Shown here in pieces: positions 6,701 to 60,560 of a stretch of 64,000 nt of DNA (position 1 is its first letter; each line of letters starts with the position of its first letter). Source of the DNA: Ischnura elegans (Eukaryota; Arthropoda; Insecta; Odonata; Coenagrionidae); NCBI RefSeq assembly GCF_921293095.1, contig NC_060253.1:97977073-98041072 (forward strand), in the 5' to 3' direction. The translations under genes and the position numbers were made by a program. The notes under the pieces were generated by a model that did no database searches, had not been told where the DNA came from, and saw only the letters and a list, made by a program, of their open reading frames with translations.

Positions 6701-9700
6701 CCTATTTTGAAAGCTCTTGTTATTATTATAATACCCGCAAGAGGATAGGACTTATCTTTAATTGGACTTAGAAAAAAGACATTCATTCGGCGTCGCCCGA
6801 GGCTGTGAGAAATATTTTTAACTTACTTGATATAATTCTTAAAAATGATAATAAATTAACTAAACACGCTGATTTATTAATCAAATGAAGAGTTCAATAT
6901 ACTTATGTTGCATTATAAACATTCTTTAGTCTTCTTTCTACCATTTCAAAGTTTTTTATGCCCATATACGAGGGAGTTCGCCTAATTGGGGCAGCCGCTT
7001 AATTGGGGCAAAGTGCACAAGTCCTGATATGTCCCAATTAACCGTAATCTACTGTACTATTTTCATTACATGATGCTCTCTATGTTTGGCCTCTTGTGCT
7101 GACTAGGTATTTCCTTATTATTTGTCTTTCGTTGGTCACTTAGCTTCAGAAAAGATGGAGCTCCTTCAAATCCTCAAGTTTATTGTTTCGTAGATTTTGG
7201 TTGGTCTTTGCCGCATATCTTGTACTGCAGGTCATAAAATTCATTTTCTTTGCATGATTTGTAGTTCATATTTAGTGGAATCACTGTATTACTCTGAATA
7301 TAGACCCCCCCCCCTAATTTTGAGGCCTCAGTCTCGAGAAAATTTTTTGAAAATACACTTGAATATATTCCCCCCTTTACTTTTATCACGGACATTTTTG
7401 GAAAAAAAGGGGGGGACTACATTCAGATAAATACGGTACATACTTAAAATTAAAAAGAAATTTGTGCTTTCACATGATTCTGTTCACAAAGCACAAAGTT
7501 CTTTTTAATTTTAATAATGAATCGCTTTCACCAAGTTACGCCTCAAACAATCAATTTTACGGTACATACCTTCAAGTCTCTTTGCTCTGCTATGACAATT
7601 TTGGACAGTGGATTTTCTTATCTGGTGCTATCTCTGTGATTTTATTGATAGATTTCTCAATGAACACATTGAAATTTACGTTAAACAGACAGCACCCTTG
7701 TCTCCCTCCTCACCTCATTCTTGCTTCTTTGCAGCCAGGTCCAGATTTAATCTTGGTTTTTTGTTTTCACATGTGTAAATTGCATTGATTTCCAATCAAC
7801 ATTATCAAATAGCAGCAATATTGCTACCCTAGTGCCCTTATATTACTCAAATCCATAATTGTCTTCATAAAGAAATTCCTGTTCACATGTCATGCCTCTC
7901 ATCTTTTAGGGGATAGGAATGTTGATGTCTGTCTTGAATTCCCTTGGCTTGTTTCTTGTTGTTTAAATGCCACAGATAGTCTTGTGGAACCGACTCAATG
8001 TCTCATATTCTACATTTTTCAATAATTTCCAAGAATATCATCAATTCCAAATGCTTTATTCATCCGTGAGTCCTTCTTTGCAGCTTCAAATGTGTATCTT
8101 AAAATGGAAGCTCTCATATCATCCAATCCAAATTAATATCCTCTTCAGTTACTATTTTTGGTTATTATTTCTGTTGATTTTGGTTTGGTTAAGAATATTT
8201 CCATTGCGTAACTCTTCCTGGTATTCCTTCCTTCTGTTCAATTTGTCTTCATTTTCAATCAGGAGATCTCCATTCTTGATATTGAGGGTTCCCACTCAAC
8301 CATGAAAACCTTAAAACCGTGGATAAGCCATGAATTTCATATATGGTGAAAAAACCTGAAAAAAGCCATGAATTTCATCATTAAACAAATCAAAAGAAAA
8401 ATCAAAATGTCCATCATATTTCAACGTCAGTCACATGCAGACACTGTCCACGAATTTATCTGCACACCTATATTTGAAGTGCAATTATTGGTCAGTGTGC
8501 CATGATGACACATTGACCTTAAGCCTATACCAAAGAAGAATGGTAACCAAGGTATTCATTAACCCTGGCAAAAATTCAGATGCTTCTTAATTTCCCTGGC
8601 ACCCTGGTCCCTCCATTTTCCCACTCACAAGCTTAAGCCAGGGCTGAATTTTGCTATCGATAGGTGACGTCATGAGAGGTAAACACTTTTATTGCTGCGT
8701 TTGCGTTCACGGTTCCTGTCGCGTTTGTTAAAGTTTTAGTTAACGTGCAGCCGATGTTCATTATGCGATCAATACTTCTGCCTAAAATGGTTAATCAAAA
8801 AATCGTGAATTTGACGTGTTAATAGCCTGGAAAATAGCATGAATTTTGTATTTTAGTTTGAGTGGGAACCGTGATTTCATTGCCTCTTGCAAAGGTCCTA
8901 TGGGCAGCTTTCATCTTTCCACATGAGAGGTTTTCGTCCACATCATCGGAAAAATTCTTCATCCATATTTTTTAGATTTGCTCGCTTTTTGACAGGCTAT
9001 ACCATTCCTCATTATCTTTTAGTTATGTTTGCCTTCTTTGGATTTTGGATTTGTTTACTCTGCTTTTACTCTATTAGTTGTGAGACTTCATCTGTGATCC
9101 TTTGATTTTTCTAGGCAACTTTTATTCTCTCAAAAACTTCTGTTGTAGCCTCCTGTGGTTTTCTTTTGGTTTATTCTCTACTGCTTCTTGAAATGCTCAC
9201 TTATTTTTATTCGCCTCAATTTTTCTACTTGCCTCAGGTTCTTCAGTTTTCTTCACTTGAATTATAAGTTAGATTTCATCAACACTCAGTTAATGTCACC
9301 ATGGTGCTTCACCAAAATATAGTCAATTTGAATAAAATTATCTGTAAATAATTGGCTAATTTTATACTCATTGCATAATTACATCCCTTTCATTCAATCA
9401 CAATTGGTCACAATCCACGTAACATACTGATAAATGGTATAAAAGCTGTTTATTTTATAATGATGATGTACCTGCATTGACCAAGATATCAATTTAAAAT
9501 ATTCACATGTTATCATTAAAAACAAAATAAATCTGAGAAAATTTTGATGCAATTTGGTTTCATGTGCAGTCGCTGATGATTCAATTGAATTGAGGTGGAA
9601 ACTAGAGAGCACATTATTTCATGTCTGTTTCTTGTGGTTAGCGCACATCTGTCTCGGTAGCCTTTACATGTATGGATGAACTGTAGCTTGGTGGGGCCAG

Positions 9701-12700: not shown

Positions 12701-15700
12701 TCCTTCATGATCTGCATTGATGAGAAACTCTCCTCTGTTTCTCCTCCACTGTTTAACCTTCTCTCACCTTCTTTGTTTGCTATAGTTGACTCTTCTTGTT
12801 GATAAATATCGCTGTGACCTACAAAGTAAATGATAGAGGCAAGTGTTTATATATGTAAATACTAAATAAGATGCTCCAAAAGACATAACAAGTTATACTT
12901 ATCCGTTTTATACTGACCTGGATTTTGCTGCGATGGTTTGCGAAATGGAAAGGACTGCAGGGACCAAACATAGCCTCCCAACCAGTAAGCCTTTGCACTC
13001 ACTCACTCACACACACACGCCAAGCTGAAACTGCCGAGAGAATAAGCTCAAGAAGAGCGGTCAAGATGTATAATAGGAAAGTGAGAAGCGTACACTTACA
13101 GTTTTACACCGACCCGGGTTTGCTGCAATGGTTTGCGAAGATGGAAAAGGACTGCTGGGGCCATACACAGCCTCTCCACCAGCCAGCCTTTGCACTCACT
13201 CATTTACTCACAATCACACGTAGACAGCAAAACATACAGGCTAACAAGCTCAAGAAGAGTGGGTCAAAATGTATAACAGGCAAGTGAGATGTGAATAGTG
13301 CTATTTCGGTATCCAAGAGGACCTTTACAGTGCGGAAAAGAGATCTTCATGACAACACATATCTTAAGTGATAGCTTTCCTATTACTGCTCTTGACCACT
13401 CTTCTTGAGCTTATTCTCCCAGCAGTTTCAGCTCGGCGTGTGTGTGCGAGTGCAAAGGCTTACTGGTTGGGAGGCTATGTTTGGTCCCTGCAGTTCTTTC
13501 CATTTTGCAAGCCATTGCAGCAAATTCCATGCCAGTGTGAAACGGAGAAGTGTAACTTGTTATGGCTTTTGGAGCATCTTATTTAGCATTTACCTGTCAA
13601 GGCCGTAGAGCTAATCACTGCATATTGAGTTTTTATACTTTTCTGTGTATATCCATATAAAGCATGCTGTTTGCTGCAGGCATGATATGACAAGTCTCCG
13701 GCAGGTGTGATATGTCATGTTTTCTGCCTGTGAGATGTACAAGCTAGTATGTATTCACATAACTAGCAATCTTTATTCAATTAAATTAAATTTTATTTAT
13801 GTGGAAAATTGCAAGTCAGTGTTTCATTATCTTTATTCAAGCTTGCAAATAGCTTTCAAGCTAGAATTAGTTTGTCATAGCAAGTTTGATACAAACTTAC
13901 CATTACAAGTGTTGTCATGACAGCCCTATGACAGGTTTGTCGCAAGTTTACATGCAATCAGGGAAAATTTCAGCACTAAGGTTGAGGAAGGTACTCGAAT
14001 TTCAATTAAAAGTTACAGAAGCTCAGCAGAAAGCAAATAGGTCTGTTTAGTTTTAAAAATTTTCAACGATGTGTCATATATTTGTTCATAAAAAAACTGC
14101 CAATACTATCTGTTAAATGCAGGTTAATTGTGCTGGAGTCATAAAATGAGGCAGAGGGTTGAGCCTAACACCCGAAGAGGGGCTAATCCCATTTTGAGTC
14201 TCACGGGGTAGCAGCGTACCCTAACTCACTATTTGAGTAGCTGTCACTTCCCGTCAGTTACAGCTAACATCTTTCTTTCGCAAAAGAGAAACAGCATTAG
14301 CTATAGCCAACATTTGGTGTGAAAAGGTTTAATTTGTAATTTGTGGTCAAGGTTAGAATTGCTTTTTCAGTGGTTCTGTTAAATATGCTGGCAATATTGG
14401 CATTGGAATTGGTTCTATATCCATTATTGAGAAGGTTGACCACTGGAATTAAGAGAGAATACTTTTTATCTTTTGAGTGGTTGAATGTGTTTGCTAGAAG
14501 TTAAGTATAAACTCTAAGCTTGAGAAATTGAATGAAAATAACATATTTTTTCAGGTATCCCTACTTCATGGTGAGCCAAAAGCTAGGCCAAATTCAACCT
14601 CATGAGTCAAAGAGTTTATCGCATCTTAACACCGGTTCCAAAGTAAACCCGCTGCTTCCAAAAAGTGTTGTTCCACAGCCTCTAGCCTTGCATACTGTGC
14701 CATCTCATATCACCCGCAAGAGGTTTCAAGAAGAAGGAGACTACATGTTTGAGTAAGACAGTTCTTTTCTGACTCAGTATTTTTCTGATATTTTTGTGTG
14801 TGGCAGTATCACTTTGAAGCTGGGGTTTCTGTCTATGCTAGTTGCCTTAATGCCCGGTGTTTTTTGTTGTGAACTAAGGCAAATTGAGTGGTGAATTCAC
14901 ATGGGTGTAGGCAGAGAATTTGGCTTGGTTGAGCCAAGGGAACACCGCAGGAACACCCACCTTCTGGGGTTCCCCAGCTTCAAGAGGGAGTGTTCCTCTT
15001 CATAAAATTTTTTAAATTTAGTCTTCTCAGAACTTATATTAAGCCTAATATCCAAGAACATTTTTGTATAATACTAAAGGTGTTGAACATAAAGGGGTTA
15101 CCAGCATTGTGTGAAGCATGGCTGCCGCAGCTTCAATTTGTCAAATTTTTCTGGGAAGGGTGAGGTCGTTGGCATTTATATGTACAGTATACTCTTGATT
15201 ATATGAAGTCAGTGGACTGGAAAATTGGCACTTCACAATATTGAATTTCGTAATTTCAAAACTTTTTAATAAGTTGCTTTTGTTTCTACCACACTTTTTG
15301 TTTCTTTAATGGCCTTTTTTTAAACATTTTTGGTGGTTATTTATGATAGAATTCTTAGAAAATTCTTTTTGTCATTGATTTTTATTGATCTTATAGATCA
15401 TTAAATAATCTCCCACCACAAACTTCCCATTATTTATAGCTAAATGCCAGCGATCTTAATGCCAAAGATATTGCGGTCCATTTTAGAAAGTGACATATTG
15501 TAAATTTTGTAATTAGAATTTGATCTTAGAAATTTGTGGTCAGTAGCAAAAAGCAACTATTATCTATGCATAAGATAGATACGGTTAAACTCTCGACTAT
15601 GTAAAGTAGGATATTATGAAATTTTCAATAATATGTATGTAGTGAAATTGTGGTCCCGGCGAAAAGTCTATGGTAAATTCTTGGGGCTATTCAAAAATAT

Positions 15701-21700: not shown

Positions 21701-24700
21701 ATGTCGTCAACGTAAAGAGCAAACAGAAGTGGGCCTAATACACTGCCTTGAGGCACGCCAGAAGAAACGGGTAAGTAATTCGATGAAAAACCTTGTATTA
21801 GAACTCTTTGGCTACGGGAACTCAGGAAATTAGAGATTAAACATAAGAGTGTGCCATGGATATTAAAACGCGACTGGAGTTTGTGGATGAGGAGGGTATG
21901 ATTAATAGAATCAAAAGCTTTAGAAAAGTCAATGACCGGCCGTATACCACCTGTGTACCTTTACATCTGTATCACCTATAAATGTACAAGCTTGAACTAT
22001 TTTCAACAAATAGAGATAAATTTTAACAAAAATCGAGGGTTATCATATAAATGCATGTATCGTGGGCAAAGTACGCCATGCACGCGGCCGTGTAAAATTA
22101 CCAGGCGCGCCCGCTCGATAGTTAACAAATCAAATTACAAGTATCTACGTACCTTCAAATGTACCAATAAAGATTTGTGATCCTTATATCAAACTATTTT
22201 TCTCCGAAACAGCTTGTTTTATTTAACATAAAGCTCTAAAAATACAATGCAAAATTAAATACCTACTGATTCATATATTTAACGGGTTGATATTGATATA
22301 CTACACTTCGCAAGTTTCACGTAGTATGGACCCTTACAAAAATCATAAGTCACTCACCTCTACTAATTCGCACACTTCACTGTAACTACACACACTGTAC
22401 CTACAACTTCGCTCAGATAATTATTGACTTAAGTCGCATTGGATCAGTGGCGCAGCGAGGGGAAGTTTTGGGGGATAAACCCCCCCAGAGACCTACAGAA
22501 ATTTTTATGTTAAATCTATTTTACGTAATTGGATTAATATTGCTTTTAGAACATTGTGAGGATTAATAAAATATCCTTCATAAGGCCGTAAAAATCAACA
22601 TTTTGAACCATTTATCTTAATTTTTTTCCGGTGGAAGGCCTCCGCACCTTCCGCTTACCCTGGTGGATATGCAATACTTCCAAGCCCCCCCAGTATTAGT
22701 TGCGCGTAAAACCCCACTTGCCTTGATTTTACTGGCTGCGCCCCTGCATTGGATCACTACAAGACGGAACTGCCACTCCGTGCTTGACAGCGCGCTTATA
22801 TATTTAGTAGACCCGGCACCACGAAACATCGAGAAAAATCTCTAAGTCTATCGACTACTCCTTAATTCAATTCCAACACCCCGAAGTTTGTGACTGCGTA
22901 GGCCGTGACCCCGAAGTTTCGTTGCTTGCGTAGTTGGCGTAGCACGTGCTATCTAGTGACATTTACAATCAGTAGTGAGCAGTGATATTACGTACTATCA
23001 CCACTCACTACTAGATGTCACTGCGCTGCTATATGAGATTGTTGTGTGAGCACCGAGCGAGCATAAAGTAGATAATATCTATCTAATTTTTTTTTAAATT
23101 TCGGAGGGGTGATCAATCCCCCTTGATTCCCCCTGGCTACGGCCTTGCATGCTCCATAAAAATAATATATTTCCTGTGTTGCGGTGTTGCCTACATCCAG
23201 GCAGCTGATCTATTCACTGGAAATATAGTCTAGAATGTGTCTCGTAGGAAGCATTCCAGATTATTGATATTCTATTGTAGTTTGTGGATAACAACTAAAA
23301 TGTCATTATCAGTGCCAATTGACCAGTCTCAAAGGTGATTAAAATAAGTGGATATGTGGTCTGACAAGTCAACTTTAAATGCACTATAGCGTGCTGCTGG
23401 TTACTTTTGTTGATAGGTCCTTGCAAATTCATCATTTCCACCATCTCATCTGGGTGCTTCCTTGAGAGCATCAGAATATTTATGGTGATCTTCTCATTCA
23501 GTAATTTCCATGCGTACTTCGTTTGCTGCCATGCACGCTATTCTCATTTACTAATTGTTGATGGTAACATCTTTCAGCATTTGTCTGTGATTTGTTCTTC
23601 TTGGTGATCACCAACAAAATGAGCTATTAATAGCTGAACATTGAAAAGATTACTCAGTCTTGTCTATGGTGCAGATTAATTCTAATGAAGTTTGTCTTTG
23701 ATCTGGTACATTTCTTCTGTGGGCATTTTCATGAGACTGATAAAGACCACACATCTTAAATATTTCTTTGTATTCATTGCTGCGGTAGGAGTCTTCTAGT
23801 GAAATCTTGTTTCAATGTGTTTATTTGCATAGCTATTCATAGGCTTGTAGATGTGATGAATTTTTTTTTCTTCTGCCTTAGTAATTACTCGTAATGAGTA
23901 GGCTCTCAGTTGGGAATTTTTTCAGTTATAGCTGGGTTGACTTGAAAATGTCAAAGGAATTGCCAAGCTGTGAATTTTTGCCTTTCATATTAGAATGCTG
24001 AAATATATCTTCTTTTTCCTCATTTCTCTCAGTCTCTAGAGGGTACCAATGCTCATAAGTCTGGAACATTTATCATGGGAGCATCTCACGGCTGAAACTT
24101 CATTCTTTTCGAATTGCACGATAAAAGAATTGATGGCTCCAAAGCTGATTCTAAATCCAATGCATGTCTTAATTCTTCTGAGTCTGTAGGTGAAAAATTA
24201 CGGCCTAATGCTTCATTTCCAAACTTATTACATTCCACTTCATTGCATTACCTTTTCTATCATGTGTAAGGCCTCTCACATTGTACCCATTAAATGCTGT
24301 TTAGTCACAATTAATAAATGAATAAATGAAAATTACGACTTACAATCATGATCCAAAATTGGAAACTTCATAGAAGGCAATGAATTTGTCTGATAGATGT
24401 GAGAAATAAATAAAGTGTAACCATGACCTTTGGATTTAAACCTGAGCTGGTCCCCTGAAGGTTGTAGGCTCCTGGGAAATCACTGACCTTGACTCCCTCT
24501 TGCTAAGGCTCTTTACTTATTGAAACTACAAAAGAAAAATCTCCCCATGTCCACGAGAATTATGCATGTCACATGTGCTATCTTCCCCATTATTGATTAG
24601 TGTATGCTAGTCCATAATGACTTACCTAGTGTATTTGAAATGTGTCTGCATCGGTTAATTAACTCCTGTGTTAGATTTATATTTGATTTACGTAGAGATG

Positions 24701-27700
24701 AACATTTGTCCAAATTCTACTCTGATTTGAATTGGTTACCTCTTCTCAGCTGAAGGGATTATATCCTGGGATCTTTTCTGTTCTCCTTATTCCAAAAACA
24801 GACTCCTGTATACCTGTACGAATTATTCATCCCCCGCAAAAAAAGTTACTGAAATTTCCACCCGCCGTGTTTCTGACCTTCAAATTCCTCAAGCCTGCTC
24901 CAATATATATTTCAAATCTTTTCATCCAGCTGCGTCTAGATTCTGGAACTCTCTTCCGCCAAATGTAAAGACGTCACAATCACTTCTGTAGTTTAAAGGA
25001 AGGTTGTACTCCTATTTGAAGTCTGGGGTTTAATTCAGTCTCCTCAACTCATTAGAGTTATCATCTTAAAGCTGTGATGTTATCAAAACTGTCTACATAA
25101 ATGTGTATATGTATGTGTGTTCATTACTGTCTAAGTTAAAACTTATATTTTTGTGTTATTAGTATTGAATATTTTACATTTTTTGTATAAATATCTGCTA
25201 CTTGTTAGCCTAACAATAATCTCCATAATGCCTTATTTTTGTCGAAATGCCTTTTATTAAGAGCTGAACATTTCCTGTATTTTCCATTTTTTGCTCTCAT
25301 AGATTTTATCTAGAGCATAATAAAAATATTCTATTCTCTTTACCTTGGGGTAAGCCTGTGCATTAGCTTAACTTAAAAAAACACTCTGGAAAAGTTTACT
25401 TTAATTAGTTTGTTAGTGCTGATCTGATTGCCTTTAGTCTCATTGTGCTTTATTTTTCAGCTTCACTCACCAGCAACCTGACTTCAGAAGTATTTTACCT
25501 TCAAAAGAAAAACTGCAGTGGGAACCTATTTTGGCACCAGCAGCATTCCCTTCCCAGACAAAGTTGAACACAAAACAGCAATGTTTGAATATGGCAAGAT
25601 ATGTAGCTGGTCAAAGCAATAATGTTGCCAGGTTTGTTAATTTTCATGCTAATGTACTTGTGACTTTTGTTAGCTATTATATAATATGACTTTACTCTTA
25701 ATGGTAAAATCATTGAGTTATGGGAGAGGTTGATTTGAATTTAGGGCCAAAAGCCTGAATGACCTTCTACTTGAACTTGTACAGCCCAGAGTATAGTACT
25801 GGCGACTATCCATGGGTATGAACAAGGTCAAGTGTCATGCGATTAAGATTTAGCGTGATGGAAATCCTACATCATCAGTTGAATCCTAGTTGGTATGTAT
25901 GCTTGTTATTATTATAGGTGTGACCTATTTTCCTTCTTGTTCCCTGTGGGACCTAATAGCAGTCAATCAATCAAGGTAGTTCTTTACAACATTTACAAAT
26001 TAATTGGTCAATAATTTTTATCAACGTTTCCATTCCATTATGTGAAAGTGGAAGTAGTGGCGGCAGATGGTTTAGACCATTCTCGGTTTGGTCCTGGAAA
26101 TTCTGTACTCACTAGCTTCTTCTATTGTGTGCAAAGTCAATTATCAAGTGATTCAGGCTTAAATTTCACTCACTGATTTAATCCAAAGGTTGGTTTGGAT
26201 AGGTGAGTATAGAGCTCACCCCAAATTAACACATTCAGTACCGTTTCGGTCACGATGACTGAAGAATGAGCCTTTCTTTTGGCCGCTCATAGCGCACCGT
26301 CAGCCACAGCTACTTCGGCGACGCGTATATGATGTGATGCGGTCTGTGGAGCCGAATGCACATGAAAACTCAAATGGAAAGGATCCAAGTATTAAAAGGA
26401 AAGAAAAACATGTTGGCACAATGGGCGAATTTATCGAAAAGTCAATGACACGGAATCTGTTAAGCTGCTAGTGCGTGAACTTCACATATCAGGGTGGGAG
26501 GGCCAGTTCCTTTCCATGGATCACTTCGCACCTCAAGGATTTGGCTTGGGGTTGACCGAGGGCTTCATCTGGGTTTGGGGTGCTGGTTTGCTGGCACTCA
26601 AAGAATATGGTAACCTAGGGGGTATGGTGCTTGGTTCCTGAACAAGTTTCACAATTTTATATTTTGAGGTTGTTTTTACATTGAGTTGGTTCATGTTGTG
26701 AATGAAATTTGTGAGTGATTTTCAACAGGTTCACTGCAGCCTGTGACCCCCAGTGAGTCACACCTGACTTCTCTGCATGGCAGAAAATTTACTGTTTTTC
26801 TTCATTTTTGTGGCTTTCGCTATTTTGGGGAAATAAGGAGTTATAGACATAAAACTTGGTGTGCCTACACTATACAATTTAACCTATGTGGCGTAACTGG
26901 AAGTTAAGTGGGACCAACTGGCGCATGGCCAAACGGCCTTCAGGACAAAACTCCTTTAACAAGGAGCTGAGTGTAGGGAATGTCATTTTGTTGGTAAAAA
27001 TCTTTCTGAAGTCCATATCCTAAGCCAGTGTGCACAATGCATAATACAGACTATTCCAGTGTGTATCATGGGGTTCTTGAATTTTTTTTTAACCTATCAC
27101 AACAGTCTTACTGCCAGTGGTGGATCTATGGGAGGGAGAGGATGAAGGGGGCTATAGCCCTTCCATTGGGTGGAAACACACACTTGATAAAATCTAAATT
27201 TTTGGAGGTTGCCACTTTGTACAAAAGTATTTAGTTATATTTTCTGATATATTTACCTACTTCAATGAATTGAAATATAAATTATGTATCTCTAAACTTA
27301 AGGCCTTTTTTTACATGCTTTTGGTATGTTAAAATCGAGTGCCTAAGGGGGGCTATTGCCCCTCTGATATCCAATTTATACTAGATAGAATGTTAATTTT
27401 CTTTGGACCTGTACTACTGCTGGGAGGTTACTCCCCACTTAGCCCCCCCTCTTGTCCCTCTCCTGCATCCACCACTGCTTACTGTTAACAGTTTTTTTCA
27501 TTTTAGTTGATTTAAAGTTTTATTGTATTCATTGATAGTATGTAGTAATATTTTAATAAGCTTAGTAATACATAGTCATAATTTTATATTTACAGACAGA
27601 AGAAAGAGATGGAGTATAACGAGAGGAGAGCATCATATTTGAGTCCACAATGGTTGATGAATTTGGATATTGGACGACCTGATCCTGAGGGGGGTGCTTT

Positions 27701-35060: not shown

Positions 35061-35420
35061 TTAGCACATAACTATAACTTAAGGTTTTCGAGGGGCTCGG
35101 TCCCCCTTACGAAACTCTTGAAGTGACAGTACCCCTAAGACTCCTGTAAATCGAAATCGAACGGCATAATCCTTTCTAAGTGAGCAGTCTCAGCGCCAAA
35201 CCTGAAATACCGTTATGAAATATGAATAATAAATGGGCCATTTGTTTCCTAAAAAAAGTACAGGCAGTACCTACGTTCGACAACCTCTTGAAACCCACCG
35301 ACAGAACTTCGTCCTGCTTCTAGCATACCATTCAACCGAAAATCTGGTCGAGAGCATGAAATACCTAAATTCTCTGACAAAGGGCAGTGATGCGGTTATT
35401 TTGCCTAGGTTTTAAATAAT

Positions 35421-35567
35421 TACGGAGGCTTCCGCGGTGAGTTGATTGGTGATGGTTTTCCGGGTTTACACCGCGTTGATTCATGTTTTTGCGGACGACA
35501 GTTTCGGGCGCGTTCCAGCTCCCGTCTTTGGACCCGGAAAACCATCTGTAAACCCGGAAAACCATCA
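35421..35567. mobile_element. short Penelope-like insert, copy 2
   Basis: It shares both ends and the body with the 3668-3899 insert (TACGGAGGCTTCCGCGG, CGGGTTTACACCGCGTTGAT, AACCATCA). The inverted second arm is shortened to about 40 bp. An exact 17-bp duplication CCTAGGTTTTAAATAAT flanks it (35,404-35,420 and 35,568-35,584). Confidence 0.8.
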
Positions 35568-36986: not shown

Positions 36987-37692
36987 GGGTGGTTTCCTAT
37001 TATTTTTTTATTGCCTAAATCGAAAGATTATTACTCCTGGAGTACGTATTTCACGCTTTTAGATTTTTAAATGACGATATCTATTTTTCGCGATTAAATG
37101 AAAAGTGAAAATTTTCATGCGCGCGAAAACGCGACGGGTAAGTATGAATGCCGGGAAAACTCCCGTGTGACGTCGTTCTGGTTCCCGATGCCGCAAGTGA
37201 GGTAACCTTGGGGCGAGGCTCTGAGCGCTGATACTACGCAGGATGCTAGCAGGTAGCAGAGTACCATGCTAGCAGGTAGCAGAGTACCATGCTAGCAGGT
37301 AGCAGAGTACCATGCTAGCTGGTAGCGCTTGGCTTAAATAAGGATTATTAATACCTTATCAAACGAGGAAAACTTTCCGACCTTAGCCAGTTTTAATAGG
37401 TGATTATTAAGGCATGTTTCCCTGAGCTCTGTGCCTCATGTATGCATTGGTAACCTCAGACGATGTAAAACTCCTATCTTCTCGTACAGAAGCTAGGTCC
37501 CTGTGACGTCACGTAGAGTGGCATCGCATGGGCGCCAATCTGGCCTTTTTCAAACGAGGATATAATTGACCCTTGCCATTCCTCTAAAACGGTATTTCTA
37601 AAACCAAATCATTTGTACATAATGAATACACTAATGGTGGGTAACGAATCGCAATCAATGCCTTTCGTTTTCTTTGATGAAGGAAACTACCC
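36987..37692. mobile_element. TA-flanked TIR element (family C), copy 2
   Basis: Termini GGGTGGTTTCCTATTA and, inverted, GGGTAGTTTCCTTCATC. TA flanks both sides (36,985-36,986 and 37,693-37,694). It is homologous over its length, in opposite orientation, to the 3632-4532 copy, and lacks the 232-bp insert seen there. Contains a 23-bp minisatellite. Confidence 0.85.
37243..37326. repeat. 23-bp minisatellite
   Basis: About 3.6 units of ATGCTAGCAGGTAGCAGAGT plus ACC follow each other almost without change. Copy 1 of the same element (about 4,240-4,285) holds only one to two related units. Confidence 0.88.
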
Positions 37693-39411
37693 TATTTAAA
37701 GCTAGTGTCGGAGAAGACTGCCGTCGGGGGAAAAACAGTTAGTACGAGTAATCTTGGATTTTTTTTCAATCGTCTTTGCCTTGAATACTACTCACTCATG
37801 AGTGTGCTTTGAAGTACCTGAAGCTTACCAAATCTAAACCCCAGAGTATAATCAAATTTCAATAATGTTCGTTCACAAGGCCACACATGTTCTTGTCATA
37901 CATATATTCTCTAAATTTTTTACCTTTCTTAATATTATTCTCAGTTTTCAGCTATGCGGGAAAAGGACTTCATTAAACCTCTACTCAAGGTCAGTAAACC
38001 CGAAAATTTCTCTGATTATCGACCTCAATCCCTCTGAATTTCGACATCAATTCTCTGTGGCTTATCAAAAACACCGGAGAAAATTGTTCATACTCAAGTT
38101 GCTGAACACCTCAAATTGCCCGATAAAATTGATTCTTATGATTGGGCTTCCCCAAAGGCTTCAGTACCCGGACTCCTTGCTCAAGTGACGCAGGACATTC
38201 GCCTCACCACCCACAGCAAATTGATCACAGTAATGGTCTTATTTGATTTCAGCATGGATTTCGAATATGTGAGTCGCTCTCTGCTCCTGCGCAAACTGAA
38301 ATCCCTAAAGTTCTCTAGTTCCGCCCTTAGCTGGTTCCATGTTTACTTGTCGGGTAGAACTCAAGCAGTTAAGGGCCAGGGTAGTAAGCTATCTTCTTGG
38401 CTCCCGGTTTCATGCGGTGTCACTCAAGGATCCGTCTTCGGATCACTCTTGTTTAATCCGAATACTCTCGATTTTGATTAAGAGCATCAATGACGGTAAA
38501 TATACGCTGTACGCAGACGACTTACAAATCTGTCCTCATTCTACCGTAGGAGCTCCTGGGAGCTCTAGAGCTCCCATGCAAAAAAATTGTAATAGAATTT
38601 AAATGATGGCTTGTTATAAAAAAGCACCCAGAGTAATATTTCACTTCTAAAAAAAGTTAATGGCTCTGCTAATTTTGCCATGACGTAACTGTATTGTATG
38701 TCTTGATATGGTGTTGCATCAGCTAATTGACTCCTGCCTAAGATTCATTGTTAGCTCACGTAGAGATGGATTTTTGTCTAAGTTCTTCATTGTTTTGAAT
38801 TGGTTACCTCTGCTTGATTAATGCTGGAATAATTTCTCTTCTACGTATTCCAAATCCAAATCCAGACTCCCGCATACCTGTGCGAACTATTGTTCCCACG
38901 CAAGAGAGTTACCGCGATGTCCCCCCTTCAAATTTCACAAGCCCGCACTAAATATACTTCAACTCTTTTCACTCAACCGTGAAAACCTTAAAACCGTGAA
39001 TGAGCCGTGACTTTTGTCTGCCGTGAAAAAACCTGTAAATAGCCGTGAATTTCGTCATAAAACCTTAGAAATCTCTCAAACTTGAATGTAGAACCACGAT
39101 GGACAGATTAAAAGATAAATCGATGTTTCGATCATGTTTCAAGGTCGAGTTACGTGCAGATACTGTCCACGCATTTTTTTGCACACGTGTATTCGAAGCG
39201 CAATTATTAATTGGTCCGTGTTCCATGACAGCACATTGACCTTAAGCCTGCGATTGGAAGACATTAACCCTGGCAAAAAATCAGACACTACCCTAGTAGA
39301 AAAAAGTGTGTTCATTCAGTGTTCTTTTTATGTTCATTTAATGTTCAAATTGTGTTCCTTCTATGTTCACCGAATGTTCACTTTATGTTCTTTTTATGTG
39401 TTTTGTGACAG

Positions 39412-39500
39412 AAAGAACATAAAAAGAACACAAAATGAACACTCGTCTGTGAACATAAAAAGAACACAAAATGAACACTCGTCTGTGAACATAAAAAGAA
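39412..39500. repeat. short GAACA tandem repeat
   Basis: AGAACACAAAATGAACACTC plus GTCTGTGAACATAAAA occurs twice in tandem (about 36-bp period) inside element B. More GAACA units continue to 39,575. Confidence 0.8.
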
Positions 39501-40102
39501 CATAATTTGAACACAAAATGAACAATTTTTTGAACATCAAAAGAACACAAAATGAACATAAAAAGAACATTTTGTTGAACAACAAAGAAAAAGCTTTCAC
39601 GAAAGTCCCATCATCACCATGATCACTTTCACATCTTTGCGAATTAGATGTCAGTGTTTGGATATGTTTCAAATTATTTTATTTCCAGCTTTATTTATTA
39701 GAAACTAACTTAATAGTAGAAGCCAAATGCTCAGGCCTTATCCCTGTTTAGTATGCAATAAAGTACATATTGAGAGTGTTTTCAGGTGTTCCTTGATTGC
39801 ATTCTCGGATCGTTCAATGTCCATTTTTTGATGATATGCCTTCATTTTGGGATAATTTTCCCGGAAATTCATTATTTTAAATTTCTAGAAATATTATGGA
39901 AAACTGCTAAAAAATACAGTTTTGTGGATTTCAAGATGGCGAAATTCAAACTCATTTTTGGTAGACAAAGTCTCCAAAATCATCTGTATTACTTGTTTTA
40001 TGTAAAGCTACTTGTCATGACACATGAACTGCAGTTATCCACAATCACCTCCAAGGAATGAGAATTTTTATACTGGTTTATTTTAAAGAACAACAAAGAA
40101 AA

Positions 40103-40530
40103 ATGTTCATTTTGTGTTCAACATAGTGAACATAAAATGAACATATAAAAAAATGTTCAATTTGTGTTCACCATGGTGAACATAAAATGAACACAAAGTG
40201 AACATAAAATGAACACATAAAAAAATGTTCATATTGTGTTCACCATGGTGAACATAAAATGAACTCAAAGGGAACACAAAATGAACATAAAGAAAAATGT
40301 TCATTTTGTGTTCAACATAGTGAACATAAAATGAACATATAAAAAAATGTTCAATTTGTGTTCACCATGGTGAACATAAAATGAACACAAAGTGAACATA
40401 AAATGAACGCATAAAAAAATGTTCATATTGTGTTCACCATGGTGAACATAAAATGAACTCAAAGGGAACACAAAATGAACATAAAGAAAAATGTTCATTT
40501 TGTGTTCACTGAGATGAACATAAAAAGAAC
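40103..40530. repeat. 194-bp tandem repeat, about 2.2 copies
   Basis: Equivalent positions 40,103, 40,297 and 40,491 give a period of exactly 194 bp. Each unit holds several everted or inverted TGTTCAC/GTGAACA pairs, including the palindrome TGTTCACCATGGTGAACA. The units are nearly identical, so the duplication is recent. Confidence 0.9.
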
Positions 40531-41250
40531 ATAAATTGAACATCAAAAGAACACACCAAGAAATTGGTGAACATAAAAGAACACCAAAAGAACATCAAAA
40601 GAACACTTGAACACTGAATGAACATATAAAGAACACCAAAAGAACATATTTTTTTCTACTAGGGTATGTACTTCACTTCCCTGCCACCCTGCTCTCTCCA
40701 TTTTCCCACACACACCCTTTAGCAGGACATGAATTTTGCTAACTATAGGTGACGTCATTAGAGATAGCACTTTCATTTCTGCGTTTGCATTCAAGGCATC
40801 TGTTGCGTTTGTTACATTTTTAGTTAACGTGTGGCCGATGATTGATACGTGATCGAAATTTCTGCCTAAAATGCCTCATCTACAAACTGTGAATTTGACG
40901 ACATTTAGACCGTGAAAACCTGGAAAAAACCGTGAATTTTGTAATGTAGTTAGAGTTGGAACCCTGTTTCAACTTACCGCTTCTAGATTCCGGGGTTCCC
41001 TACCACTAAGTGTCATATCATCGCAATCCCTTCAATCCTTTGAAGAAAGGTTGTACTGTTAATTGAATACCCGCATTTAAGTTTATTTACCATTCATTTT
41101 GTTCTCATCAACATTTTATATTCATATATGTGTTAGTTACGATTTCTTAAAACTTATGCTATTGTATTGTTGATATTGAATATTTTTTGTGTCCTAGTCA
41201 AAGCATTTTTTCTTGTGAAGCCTCGCTATGATTTCATTAAAGCCTAAAAA

Positions 41251-43624: not shown

Positions 43625-46600
43625 GTAAGTTTGATTTCATCGCGCCTGGGAAAACATTATTTAAAGTTCCTATTCGCCTTAATTGCGTTCAATTCTTTGT
43701 TTCTATTCCAGATCGTGATGCTCCAAAGAGAGCTGATTAGACTTAGTCCGTTGGAGGAGCAGTACAAGGAATCACTGAAGGAATTTTTGCAGCTAACTCA
43801 GTTGGTTGATTCTAAACTATACGCTTTGTGGACTGCGGCTTCTTCATTGGAGGCAACGAAAAGTGCGAAGGTAAAAGAATTCGTGCAAAGCATTTCTTCA
43901 ATGTGGAAATCGGGTGATGAAGAAGTGCGGAAGACTTTAAAAAATACGCACCTTGTGAGCCAAAGTTATCCAGGTACTTAACTTTTTTATTGCATAGACT
44001 TTATATTTGATCTGCCGAAAGATTCAGTTTAAAAAGTGTAAGGAGTTTTCTTTGAAAAGGTGAAGAATAATTTTGAGATAGTGATTTTTTAATGTGTGAG
44101 TGAGATTTTTAATGATTGTTTTATTAGAGTGCTTAAAATTGTGATGTAGGCGTATGCTAAACAGTGTACAAGTGGTAACAGTGTATCCTTTTATCGAATT
44201 GCCAATTTTCGTCGGATATTGCCAATTTGGATTCGTAACTTATTTCACGTTCCAGACAATACTAATAAAACCTGCGTTATGGTTGATCTCGGTCGATGTC
44301 TATTTAGTTAAAAAGTTTCGCTAGCTGCGATTTATATGCACTCCTGTAATTCGCTGAGGTATCAGTCTTATTTTGAAATTTCCAAATGCCGTTTTAAATG
44401 GAGAATTTATATATTCATTCTAATCTAGGCGCTGGATCGCAGCGAAAATGAATGGCGCTTAATAGCAAATTTAGGGAGCGAATGTTCAAATGCATAGGTG
44501 CCTGACTTCTGGAACGTCTAATCCGACTTTTACCGGGGCCCGTTGGACTGCATGATATTTTTTCCTCACCAGAGCATGCTTTTCGGAGAAACGATCGACG
44601 TATGAGGTGCCGTGATGTGGTTTTTCTAGAAGAAAATTTCTCAATTCCTGCAATAGGGAAAGTATTCATAATCAGTGAGTAAGTTGTTCACTCCCACTCG
44701 TGGTGTCATTTTTTCTGACGTTCCTATTACCAGTTGAAAATTTCGCCGCGCTGAAAGTACTAGGATAGGATTATTGGATAGACTCTTTCAACATTTGGAT
44801 GCATCCCAAAAATTTTTTTCTTTATTTTTTCTGATCCAAAATTTTTGTTCTTATACTTTTATTTATTTTATTCATTGTAATACAAATTTAATTTTCGTAT
44901 AAATTCCCTGTCCACCGCAAAGTTACTTCCGGTGCCGGAGATTTTCTGCTACGACTATAGGTTTTTACCGTTTGGTATTCATTTGCAAATATAGCGATTC
45001 TAAGGAATTCTGGCGCAAAAAATACGATTAAATGCAGAACAATCCTCAGGGGCATAACGGGCGTAGAAAATATATTTGCCACAACGAAATTCATTATGAT
45101 CGCAATGTTCTCCAAAGAAACCCCTGAATAGTATGTATTTTTGCTGCATTTTAAGGCTTGTGCGGCATACATTATTATGACTTCCAATGCGTGGAGGAAG
45201 GCTTGGTTATTCCCTGACAAAATAAGCAATATTGTGTGATTTTAGCGGCGTATCTCCCTTGGGCAACTTCTGATTTCTAGCTAATCTATTGCTGGGTCGA
45301 TGAACTAGACACATTCCTTCCTATTTAAATGAGTTATTTATTTCAGCCGTAATTTACTGTAAATGTATAGAAGTTGAAGACATAGAAATGAATTTTTCAG
45401 TTTCGTGTTTAAATTTTGAAAAATCGAAATAAGTGAGACATTGTCATATTTTGCTAACTAAAGCTTAAAAGTTCTCCTTTGTGAACTTAAATATTTCAAG
45501 AATTACAAATTTCTGGTTCAAATAAGATTATAATCTTCAGAGATTTTTTATGCCCAATCCAATACTAGTAGCTTAAGAAGAGAGAATTTTTTTCTTTGGT
45601 TTCATTATTTTTCGAAAAAAAAATTTGGTGGTAATAATAAGTGATCATTTCAGGGGTGCCAACTTGGGGGATTTTATTTCTCTGAGAGCCCCACTAAAAT
45701 AAAAAAGAGAAAAGAATGGGACTTCATGAAAATGTATTTTAGGTGGGGTAATAAAATATGATCAATAAACTAAAGTATTTTTTAAAAGTATAATTTATAA
45801 TGGAGCATAAGTTTTTACTTTTCTTCTACTAACAATATCCATGCCTAACTGCCATAAAAAACATGGCACATATGAGGTAATAGAAAATATATCTAATCTG
45901 GGTGCAAAATGGTTGGAAGAGCAATTGAGTAGTCCTTAAAAAAAGTGATGATGTATCCATCACTAAAATATGGTACACTGTCACTGTTAAAACGTTGCAT
46001 GGAACTAAGAGAATCGACAGGGAATTCACACAATGTGCAGCACAAGATAGGAAAGAGCACTTGAGCCAGCAGGAATTGCAGGTTATGCATCAGAAGGATT
46101 AATGTGTTTGAAAATTCAACTTGATGATTCAAACTAATGCCATGTGGTTGCATTTAAGTCCCCCAAAAATAGCCAGTGATCTAGAGTTGACATTCTATTT
46201 AGGCTTCACCTCAAGTGTGTCAACTTTACTCTTTGTTACATGATTAATGGCTATGACCTTGGGTAGCTTATTTTGGCTTTTCTCATAGAATCTCAATGTT
46301 TGTATTTAGTGTTTATGCACCATACACTGAGCATTTTTACTCACCTATACTCGAAAGGATGTTAGAGAAAGGTTACTTTAAAATAACAGTGTTGAATTAT
46401 GTCCCATCAATTTTCTTGGCCCATTGACTTTTAGTAACTTAATGTTGAACTATATTATGATGCTGAAAATTTCTCTCCTTATTTCAACTTTTCTTTGGCC
46501 TAAAAATATTATCGTAGTTGATCACTCTCCCATTTGAAGTGGAGGACATTGCTAATATTATGTGTCCTGCTACAGTTTTCCCCACACCTTATCCGGTAGT

Positions 46601-49600
46601 GTCCGCAAATATCTACAGGGAAGAATGACGCCGCGGTAGCTTAACTGGCTAAAGCACTCGACCGGAAATCGGGGGATCCGGGTTCGAATCCCGGTCAAGG
46701 CGAATGATTTTTTCTCTGTGGATCTTTCGCACGATTGTGCATTGCGGGTGACTCCCGTATAAGTTATCACCGTGGCTAGTCCTGGTATACTTTAAAAACT
46801 CATCTCTCTCAAGTTATGGATGTTTGCTGAGCTTAAACGTAGTCTTTGCATCTCCAGTGAGTGTGTTCGTGTAATTCAAAATAAAATGCCAAAGTTAGGA
46901 AGCTTGTTCTCATTTGCTAAATAAATTTACATAGATCCATTCTCAGAAATAGATATCTCTTTTTCTGTTATAATATTTCTACCTACTTTGTAAGTTAACA
47001 TAGCTTTGAGGGGACTCCAGGTTACACATGCTTTAGCATGTTTGAATTTTACATTATTGGTCAAGATGATGGATTAAATGAATTAAACATAGCTTCTCTT
47101 TCAGATACATGAACTATTTGATGAGGAGGATTTGGGAATTTTTATTATTATGAGCTTGATTTTCATTTCAGATATACCATTAGATGAATTCATCCAAGCC
47201 ACGCATAAGCATTACGCTGTTTTGAGGAGGCACCTTGATTCTGTTCCTCGTCATGCTCGCTGTAATCATATTGCTTATTCAAAAAATAGTGAGGTATTTT
47301 TATTTACATGTAATTCATTTAATGTAATAACAATAATAGTGCCTCGCATTAGTCTACAACCTCCGCTCTTCTGACTACATTTCTCTCAGTAACTTTCTTG
47401 AACTGAGTATGTATTGTGAATGCGGCATCATAAATGTGATAATCCAACATTAAGCAGATCATCCTTTATTAATGTATGAAGTTTAGTCTGTTACAAATGG
47501 TAAATTTATCTTTATACAACTTTGGAATTTGATTATGCCCAACTTCTTTGTCCATGATCTATTCATTTATAATCATAGGAGAATGTAAACTATGGGAGAC
47601 TTAAAGAGAAATGTTTGTATATTTCACAAAATATTGATAATGATCTGATTTTCCCTTGTATTTAAATTTACAGCATCTTTAAATTTTTAATTTTATCACA
47701 GATGATTCACTTACTAAACCACTTGAGCCAGATGGATTACATTCTGCAGTATTATATTGCTCTATGCCGAGTCAATCCTTTCCTGCGAAGCCTTGGTCAA
47801 GCCATTGATCAGTATATTATCCAAGAGGGCTACCTTGCCACATTGTATGGGCCGACTTTTGCTGAAAAGGTACAACCTGGTGCTAGCACATGGAAAAACC
47901 CTGCATCTGGACCAAGTAATCTTTCAAAGGCTAAGTCTGAACTATCAGCGTTTCATTCATTGACAAAACTACTGACTGGAGAACTACTGGGACATCAGCC
48001 ACTGGATCCCCTAACTGGACTTGAACCATTGGTAAGTAAATATGTAGGTGATTCAATTAGATTTATTACTATTTTTTTGCACCCAATAAAACATTCCTAC
48101 CATGAAATACGTTGATCAATACATTCACAGGAATGCCAACTTACCAAACATATTGGGGTGGCCCTAACCGGGGATCTTGCACTGGGAAATTGTACAAGTA
48201 GTGAGTTTTAAGTTTTTTAAGCATTTTACCATAGTCATATGATCAACATTAGAGCCCTGATAACTCGAATCTCGATATCTGGGCACTCCGGGGAGAGTCG
48301 AGAAGCCTGAAAAAATGTTTTCCTCACACCCATAACGAATTTTTGAGGGGGCTCGGGCCCCCTCAGGCCCCATGGAGTCGGTGTCACTGTACATTCAGTG
48401 TGGATCATAGCAACTCTTGTCTGTTCTACCCCCACAAATGGATTGCATCAATTGAGATCTGGCTGATAATTTACTTCTAAATATGTTTTGTATGTAGGTA
48501 TTTACTTGCTGTTCACTGTGATTCATATTATGATGCATTAATGTATTTTTTTTATTAATAAGGCTTTTGGTCTTTTAATTCTCTGTCTAGGGATTCTGCA
48601 GACATGTACTTTTTTCTTAAGTTTCACATTTTGATGTATGTTTTATGATATGAATTTAATTGTGCTCTGTCCCTACAAAGTATTGCTATTGAAATTAGAG
48701 CAATTCATGAAATAATGGTTAGTTGTATAATTTTCTAAGGGAATTGGAAATTTTAAAAAAATATCCCTCAGTAGCTGACCACCTGGTGTTGCTTGGCAAG
48801 GGTGGTACCCAGATAAGTGGGAAGCTTGTTAATTGAAATTCATGGTCAAATAGCAGAATTTCTATATTTTCTTTTTGAGCCTATCAAGAGGTGTGCCTAC
48901 TGGGCAGGATGCCCAACCACAGAAGTTGTATGACGTGATCTAACAAACAAAATTGTTGCAAAGGACGTGTCGGACACAACCGAAAGTAGCACCATAGCAA
49001 GAATTAGATGTATCTATGTATTAACGTTGGTTGAAATCTGTGCAGCCTATAAAAGTGCATCATGGGCAAACAAACAGACATCCTTTTTTATATGTATAGA
49101 TTTTATGCATTGTTATTTTGACTTTGTTGAATACATACCTATTTGGTGCAAAAAATCCACACAGGAAAAATCATTCGCCTTGACCGGGATTCGAACCCGG
49201 ATCCCTCAATTTCCACCCAAGTGCTTTAGCCAGTAAGCTACTGAGGCATCAATCTCCCCTGTAGAAATTTGTGGACTATACCGGACAAGATGGTATGGAC
49301 TCCTGAGCATATTATGTGACTAGCAGTCGAAGTCGTGCACACGGCGCTACAGTCGGAGAGCAAAGCCCGAACTTTGAACACGAAGAGGGGTTTGCTCTAG
49401 ACTTATTTAAGTATACCAGGACTAGCCACGTGTGCATTGCGGGTGACTCCGTAAAAGTTATCAGCAGGGTGTCAGCAAAATATGTGACATGTGATGAGCT
49501 CTGTGCAGGCTACTCTGTCAATTCACTACAGTGAACTTCGAGGAATTGTGATTATTATCGTCTCGGTCAGAAGCAATGCTCAAGCGTAGCTTCTGACTGG

Positions 49601-53545: not shown

Positions 53546-54639
53546 CATTGCCACTAACATTTAATTACCTTCAGCATCAACTAATGCATAAAATCTATAG
53601 CAGCTAATATTTGTACTCATTAAAGGCAGGGTTTGCAGCAGCAGATCCTCCTTGCCTACAGTAAATAATTATTCTTTAAGTTGCCCTGATTTCAAGGGTC
53701 CTTTGTCTCTACATTTTTCTTCAAGTGCTAGTTGGTTCACCACCTGTGGTTGAGACCTTGTGGATATGCTCTTATCTGTTGGAGATCTTTGGCGTACTAA
53801 ATTTCAAGTCCAGTTTTTTTGCACTGTAGTGAGCCATACCATACCATTCACTTATCTTTTTAATCCTGCCTACCAAAACATTTATACCTTATTTTTTCAC
53901 AGTAGCATATTTTCAATGGTAGCCAGATGTCTAGGAAAGGGATTTTATTTGTTTTGTCGTAATTAAATTTCGATATTAGTGGTGTTGGACAACAGTACTT
54001 ATGGCACGAAAATTATAATTTTTCGATTATCGTATTTTAATTGTACTGCTAGTTTTCGTCTTTCGATACTGGTCAACAGAAAAATATTTAGAAATATCTC
54101 CAGTTCGCGCAAAGAGTATTATATAAAATTACCGCGTAAGAATATTTTCATTTGCGCTTAAATTGTGCAGTTAGCCTTTTATGACCTTTTAACCTTCGAC
54201 AGGGGCCGCTAAATCGTAAGTCTTCCATTTCAGTGCGGGATATATTGAGAGGAAGCTAGAACCTCGCTTCTGCCTGAAGGGGCAGTAGGTGGAAAACCCA
54301 TGTGGTCCCCTCCCAGTTTTTTTCGCGAGGTCCTCCAGAGAAGGATCTGGCAACTAGGTGACGAATTATAGGCTCCTGCAATAATTGGGTCAGAATTTCG
54401 GTCACAAAACAAAAACACTACAAAACAAGTACATCATAAAGTTTTTTTCGTTCTAATAGTATCGATGTGAAGCACTTAGGAAAGCCTATTTTATTTGCCT
54501 AGTTCTGGGGAGACTCCCAGAGCGCATAGAAGATAATTTGAAGAAGGGCTCTTCGATAAAGAAATGCGACTCCTGCAGAGGGAAATTAGTCACCTGAAAC
54601 ACAAACCTCTATGGCTTTAATTGTAATTTCGGGCTTTGC
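53546..54639. other. intergenic, no feature
   Basis: AT-rich. A less AT-rich block at 54,180-54,370 has no recognised similarity. Confidence 0.35.
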
Positions 54640-54950
54640 TCTCCGGCTGTGGCGCAGTGCTCACGACTTGGACTGCTAATTGCATAATATGCTCAGCAGT
54701 CCAGACCATCTTGTCGGGATAGGGGTCAACTTATTGTCCCGTCCGGGATAGTCTACAAATTTCACAGAGGGGAATGACGCCTCGGTAGCTTAACTGGCTA
54801 AAGCAATCGACCGGAAATCGGGGGATCAGGGCTCCCGGTCAAGGCAAATGATTTTTTTCTCAGTGGAGTTTTCGCACAATTTGTACATTGCAGGTGACTC
54901 TGTAAAGTTATCACCGTGGGTAGTCCAGGTATATTAAAATTATTGAGAGA
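54640..54950 (+). mobile_element. tRNA-derived SINE, copy 3, framed by an inverted repeat
   Basis: The leader GCTTTGCTCTCCGGCTGTGG, the A box TAGCTTAACTGG (about 54,787-54,798), a damaged B box (GGGCTCCCGGTC) and the usual tail are present. A 20-bp inverted repeat, AGGGGTCAACTTATTGTCCC at 54,721-54,740 and its inverse at 54,955-54,974, brackets the tRNA part. Confidence 0.82.
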
Positions 54951-60208: not shown

Positions 60209-60548
60209 TATTCAAGTATACCGGGACTAGCCACGGTGATAACTATTTACGGAGTCACCCGCAATGCACAAATAGTGCGAAAAATCCACAGAGGAAAAAT
60301 CATTCGCCTTGACCGGGATTCGAACCCGGATTCCTCGATTTCCGGCCGAGTGCTTTAGCCAGTTAAGCTACCGAGACGTCATTCTCCCCTGTGGAAATTT
60401 GTGGACTATACCGGACATCCATACGGAAAAAACAGGGGAGAATGACGCCTCGGTAGCTTAACTGGCTAAAGCACTCGGCCGGAAACGAGGGATCCGGGTT
60501 CGAATCCCGGTCAAGGCGAATGATTTTTCCTCTGTGGATTTTTCGCAC
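60209..60548. mobile_element. inverted dimer of tRNA-derived SINEs
   Basis: A reverse copy (about 60,209-60,415; B box inverse at about 60,317-60,327) and a forward copy (about 60,430-60,548; A box TAGCTTAACTGG, B box GGTTCGAATCC) face away from a short centre. A 12-bp duplication AAGTCTGCGAAA flanks the pair as a whole (60,197-60,208 and 60,549-60,560). The forward copy lacks part of the anticodon arm (CCGGAAACGAGG). Confidence 0.88.
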
Positions 60549-60560
60549 AAGTCTGCGAAA

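Follow-up and report, generated by a model that had tools for sequence, protein, structure and literature searches.

Within the window, by which we mean the whole 64-kb stretch of DNA that was analyzed, lies an element, here called element B, that is bounded by terminal inverted repeats (TIRs) and has TA on either side. Its parts, and the second copy of the repeat that hosts it, are as follows.

39291..40664, element B, TIR-bounded, with TA on either side
39289..39290, unstranded, left TA, by its sequence presumably one half of a 2-bp target-site duplication
39291..39305, plus strand, left terminal inverted repeat CCCTAGTAGAAAAAA, a perfect match to the right end
39309..39390, minus strand, left outer array of 8 TGTTC sites in exact 11-bp steps
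39415..39581, plus strand, left inner array of 15 GAACA sites in the opposite orientation, with two identical 36-bp units
39590..40085, unstranded, core of 496 bp with 1 pentamer and no recognizable coding sequence
40095..40533, unstranded, right array with a 194-bp higher-order unit and 4 palindromes TGTTCACCATGGTGAACA
40516..40646, plus strand, right outer array of GAACA sites, reaching the right end
40650..40664, minus strand, right terminal inverted repeat, the reverse complement of CCCTAGTAGAAAAAA
40665..40666, unstranded, right TA by sequence
8293..8888, plus strand, second copy of the host repeat, lacking element B, its empty site near 8581-8585

The inverted ends of element B are perfect over 15 bp, with CCCTAGTAGAAAAAA starting at 39291 and the reverse complement of it finishing at 40664, and with TA on both sides they bear out the original observation of matched ends in TA flanks. 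Compared without gaps, the arms at 39289-39348 and 40607-40666 are 87% complementary across 60 nt. A search with the first 14 bases of the end, allowing up to 2 mismatches, found only the element's own two ends in the window, both exact. Shuffles averaged 0.89 matches in this search and reached 2 or more in 23 of 100 cases, so that the argument is carried by the exactness and position of the ends and not by their count. The copy of the host repeat at 8293-8888 aligns with the left flank (228 of 268 aligned bases matching, gaps excluded) and with the right flank (246 of 298, gaps excluded), and it holds nothing of element B between 8580 and 8586. Because this copy is without the element, element B is a true insertion. 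At the insertion point the filled and empty sites differ by an indel of a few bases, so that a 2-bp duplication, with one TA before insertion and two afterwards, can be presumed from the sequence, but a TA inside the TIR with no duplication fits equally well. The empty site also bears on whether the locus could be a non-mobile minisatellite that expanded locally and lies by chance between inverted repeats. Clear recent internal duplications are in keeping with such an expansion, but the perfect 15-bp ends lie outside the array and border an insertion that is missing from the other repeat copy. A plain minisatellite was rejected on the ends and on the empty site, which largely refutes it, and we regard it as very improbable.

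Element B is the innermost layer of a three-layer nest at 38680-41186, where its immediate host is a dispersed repeat (about 38970-40982), which in turn interrupts an older repeat. This interruption lies downstream of a reverse-transcriptase-like ORF, and an uninterrupted copy of the older repeat is present at 24617-25175. Further repeats are scattered through the window. A hairpin at 3689-3907 has 101-nt arms that are 98% complementary with 17 nt between them, and a partial copy of it is found at 35416-35531. The regions 3627-4484 and 37032-37697, about 33 kb apart, share inverted blocks of 41 to 379 bases that are 86-93% complementary, and a 23-bp tandem repeat lies within the second of them at 37243-37326. 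Another inverted repeat, at 12855-13593, has 156-nt arms, 90% complementary and 427 nt apart. SINE-like dispersed repeats with tRNA-like parts occur at 46592-46795, 49146-49374, 54625-54834, and 60211-60556; four reach the Rfam tRNA threshold, and of these ARAGORN gives three as tRNA-Ser and one as undetermined. The copy near 54764 received no ARAGORN call, and two copies form an inverted pair at 60275-60548.

GAACA/TGTTC pentamers set element B apart from its surroundings: 68 fall in 1378 bases, where 2.6 would be expected from the density in the rest of the window. The remaining 62,622 bases hold 116, with a maximum of 7 in any other stretch of equal length. Some 60% of its sequence belongs to a GAAC/GTTC core or adjoins one, in agreement with the earlier estimate that short GAACA-type repeats occupy over half of its length. 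The basic unit of the array is an 11-bp motif, TGAACATAAAA, and not the 194-bp period. Gaps between same-strand neighbors are exactly 11 bp in 41 of 66 cases (27 of 44 on one strand, 14 of 22 on the other), and TGAACATAAAA is the commonest unit among 73 GAAC cores, with 14 exact occurrences. Subterminal 11-bp units are present in both orientations and at both ends. Counted inward from either terminus, GTTC cores one to four stand at +20, +31, +42, and +53, the last four GAACA sites of the right outer array having the same register to their end as the sites on the left; beyond the fourth core the two sides diverge. From left to right the parts hold 8 TGTTC pentamers, 15 GAACA pentamers, 1 pentamer in the core, and 44 on the right, and the element is lopsided (23 on the left against 44 on the right). 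The 8 sites in one orientation followed by 15 in the opposite one refine the earlier description of inverted repeats near the left end.

Because the half-site of steroid receptors is GAACA/TGTTC, the array could be read as a set of steroid or nuclear-receptor response elements controlling nearby genes, and half sites of this kind were among the possibilities first raised. The inverted, 3-bp-spaced forms GAACAnnnTGTTC and RGNACANNNTGTNCY both occur 0 times in element B, however, and direct spacing of 11 bp is not known for steroid-receptor sites, which leaves receptor control scarcely credible.

Within the right array, TGTTC sites come in pairs spaced 11 bp, and these take turns with groups of two to four GAACA-type cores; the distances from one core start to the next follow a set pattern of 11, 12, 11, and 16. 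The 194-bp tandem period originally reported on this side extends over 40095-40533 in 2.3 copies with 97% matches, and the palindromes reported with it are present as well, TGTTCACCATGGTGAACA being found 4 times. A single base in 194 separates the two full 194-bp copies, and this unit is a recent duplication. No difference is seen between the two 36-bp units of the left side, and further periods, of 50, 72, and 122, show 85-93% matches. These repeats suggest that the arrays grew by local duplication in several rounds, of which the latest was recent. In single-strand folding against shuffles the arrays form stem-loops, with z -19 for the right array (0 of 100 shuffles as good) and z -10 for the left 300 bases (0 of 200 shuffles as good).

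The core at 39590-40085 has no other match within the 64-kb window. Twenty-four ORFs of 35 aa or more overlap element B, and a Pfam scan of 7 of these 24, with an E cut-off up to 10, gave no transposase match, in line with the original statement that the element lacks one; the sole match in the 7, to a zinc finger at E = 7.4, is without meaning. Since the element has no recognized coding sequence, we infer that it must be moved in trans. Among 10 window ORFs scanned, 1 had a LINE-like match to RVT_1 (E 3.2e-6; 27.4 bits, under Pfam's 29.6), and this reverse transcriptase ORF, taken with what is known of such LINEs, suggests an animal host. Structure searches with 4 window ORFs left 3 without a match; the ORF at 47666-48112 matched an engineered protein (E 5e-7) and a second designed protein (0.0018), with no stretch passing alone.

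The ends and subterminal units of element B have counterparts in published transposons. According to the relevant parts of the sources, plant CACTA elements are recognized by short inverted ends together with subterminal units of 10-20 bp, direct and inverted (PMC8978399), while the animal TRC (Transposons Related to CACTA) start with CCC and are bordered by 2-bp repeats (PMC1636069), as does Hydra Spongebob (PMC4298943). Element B has a CCC core in the TIRs at both ends, as in animal CACTA/TRC, and its 11-bp subterminal units in both orientations are of the kind stated for plant CACTA. Eight published ends were compared, those of Tribolium TRC, Aedes TRC, Hydra Spongebob, and five Chenopodium CACTA elements; the end of SmTRC1, which is spelled out in a figure only, was left out. 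As these ends are quoted in their sources, the Tribolium TRC end, which starts CCCTAGTAGCACC (PMC1636069), has CCCTAGTAG in common with element B, the first 9 bases being identical and 11 of the first 15; Jozin ends read CACTAGTAGAAAAA (PMC8978399), that of C. pamiricum being the best match at 14 of 15, and the four other Chenopodium ends reach 12-13 of 15. Shuffles of the element's 15 bases equaled these six good matches, five of which are related Chenopodium ends and not independent, in 0 to 8 of 20,000 cases. Their scores were reached at 2 to 4 of 127,970 places on both strands of the window, including the element's own two ends, in a comparison that is post hoc in that lookalikes were sought first. 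The two other ends, as quoted, are at shuffle level: that of Aedes TRC has CCC and one further base in common with element B (4 of 10; about 6,100 of 20,000 shuffles as good), and that of Hydra Spongebob matches at 6 of 15 (about 4,800 of 20,000 as good). A CCCTAG-like start is also known from piggyBac, a candidate that was dropped because it needs a TTAA target and the flanks of element B are TA only.

We conclude that element B is probably (at about 0.72) a non-autonomous CACTA/EnSpm transposon, most like the animal TRC branch, with arrays that would bind a transposon-encoded protein. As neither a transposase nor a second copy was seen in the window, its membership in CACTA/TRC rests on cis features. 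The ends, the 11-bp grammar, the register shared by both ends, and the empty site argue for this assignment; counting against it are TA flanks that also suit Tc1/mariner, a 2-bp duplication that is no more than presumed, and the two animal ends that match at shuffle level. The likeness to CACTA/TRC ends would be coincidental if element B were instead a non-autonomous element of Tc1/mariner type or of another TA-specific kind. Tc1/mariner elements insert at TA, which stands on both sides of this single copy, and two of the three animal CACTA ends compared match element B no further than CCC. Against coincidence stand the 14 of 15 bases shared with a CACTA end and the 9 of 9 leading bases shared with a TRC, together with densely packed arrays whose short units run in both directions, a CACTA hallmark that to our knowledge is not a Tc1/mariner trait, and we consider a TA-specific element of this sort to be a minor possibility.

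As a member of CACTA/TRC, element B can be set beside its described relatives. Like TRC (SmTRC1, Tribolium, Aedes), it has a CCC start, 2-bp flanking repeats (here TA, as a presumed duplication), and an insertion into repeats, and TRC insertions were likewise revealed by empty paralogues, as described in parts of PMC1636069. The same source describes for SmTRC1 an internal 15-bp repeat in the TIR, a tandem-repeat region in the element, truncated copies, and a 2-bp repeat visible in 7 of 14 copies only. Unlike element B, the TRCs described there are 4.5-9.2 kb long with a Transposase_21-type gene, and none that appears in the parts of PMC1636069 considered contains an array of the 11-bp unit TGAACATAAAA or is occupied by arrays for most of its length. 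Plant CACTA elements differ in starting with CACTA and not CCCTA, in their 3-bp duplication, and in unit sequence, the C. pamiricum Jozin unit being the 12-bp TATTTGTAACTA (PMC8978399). The heavier array on one side and the stem-loops of element B are paralleled in soybean Tgmt*, for which the relevant part of PMC2613891 gives 4 subterminal repeats on the left and 24 on the right that can form stem-loops. The original view that no described family has such a design does not survive this comparison, since subterminal arrays of short units running both ways are a CACTA hallmark and the ends match some of the CACTA/TRC ends given in these sources. Its overall reading holds for a TIR element with TA flanks and without a transposase, and fails on the novelty of the design and on receptor sites.

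Arrays covering about 60% of the element, and its strong self-pairing, would also fit the foldback type (FB, TU, or Tetris-like), in which long arms contain tandem subrepeats, the transposase would be unrelated, and the array could seed a satellite. A satellite seed was also among the readings first offered, and the 194-bp unit stands at only 2.3 copies here. Duplications made by FB and TU are longer (9 and 8 bp), whereas only TA is repeated at the borders of element B. Its well-matched ungapped arms extend for about 60 bp (87%), and its inner arrays are not mirror images. A parallel lies in the repeat content: Tetris, a foldback of Drosophila virilis, is apparently non-autonomous with tandem repeats inside inverted ends, and its TIR tandem repeats of about 220 bp (against a 194-bp unit in 2.3 copies here) became a satellite, according to the pertinent part of PMC4079207. 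Foldback also names a shape and no exclusive family, and we judge an element of this type, moved by an unrelated transposase, to be quite unlikely.

The CACTA/EnSpm assignment suggests how element B may be mobilized. In maize Spm/En, as summarized in part of PMC2613891, TNPA binds the subterminal repeats, which determine excision in cis, and the transposase is TNPD. By analogy, a transposon-encoded DNA-binding protein with a TNPA-like role would bind the TGAACATAAAA motifs and bring the ends together, and a transposase from a full-length relative would cut at the CCC ends. The 11-bp spacing is close to one helical turn, so that bound proteins may line up along the same side of the helix, and opposed motif pairs would permit protein dimers. 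The arrays would afterwards have been enlarged by local duplication, of 36 bp on the left side and of 194 bp and shorter units on the right. Transposase-binding sites, as a putative function, are the best of the three readings first offered for the array. Element B most likely belongs to an ordinary kind, here strongly expanded.

Relatives were also sought outside the window. Viral contigs gave 0 matches to the full end followed by TGTTC; a looser end pattern gave 2 stretches there, with no array in the bases inspected, and prokaryote genome contigs gave 1 stretch without an array, all taken as chance. A bare TGTTC array in exact 11-bp steps is found in at least 120 viral stretches (e.g. L003, L026, and L043), which by eye, over 44 matches, we take to resemble phage or replication iterons; they have the core and spacing of element B, presumably not through common descent. 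Literature text searches found no description of element B, either with the end sequence (CCCTAGTAGAA occurring only in a paper on rodent DNA, by its title) or, as judged from the listings, with the 11-bp unit.

In Spm/En alleles, TNPA on subterminal repeats blocks nearby transcription. Element B could represent an animal CACTA lineage that has kept a plant-like end (14 of 15) and turned its ends into a docking array of about 70 sites, which, in binding much more protein than transposition requires, would serve as a sink damping its autonomous relative or would block nearby transcription in a protein-dependent way, a speculative proposal to which we give a low probability. If it is true, the end sequence would be a trait inherited in common by plant and animal CACTA. 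The part of PMC1636069 that treats the likeness between Tribolium and plant ends leaves undecided whether it reflects coincidence or descent, and the ends of element B, in which the CCC start of animals is combined with the CTAGTAGAAAAAA run of plants, bear on that question provided that the host is an animal. A likely family can be given to a seemingly unclassifiable element, the array of which follows a known cis-organization and not a new design.
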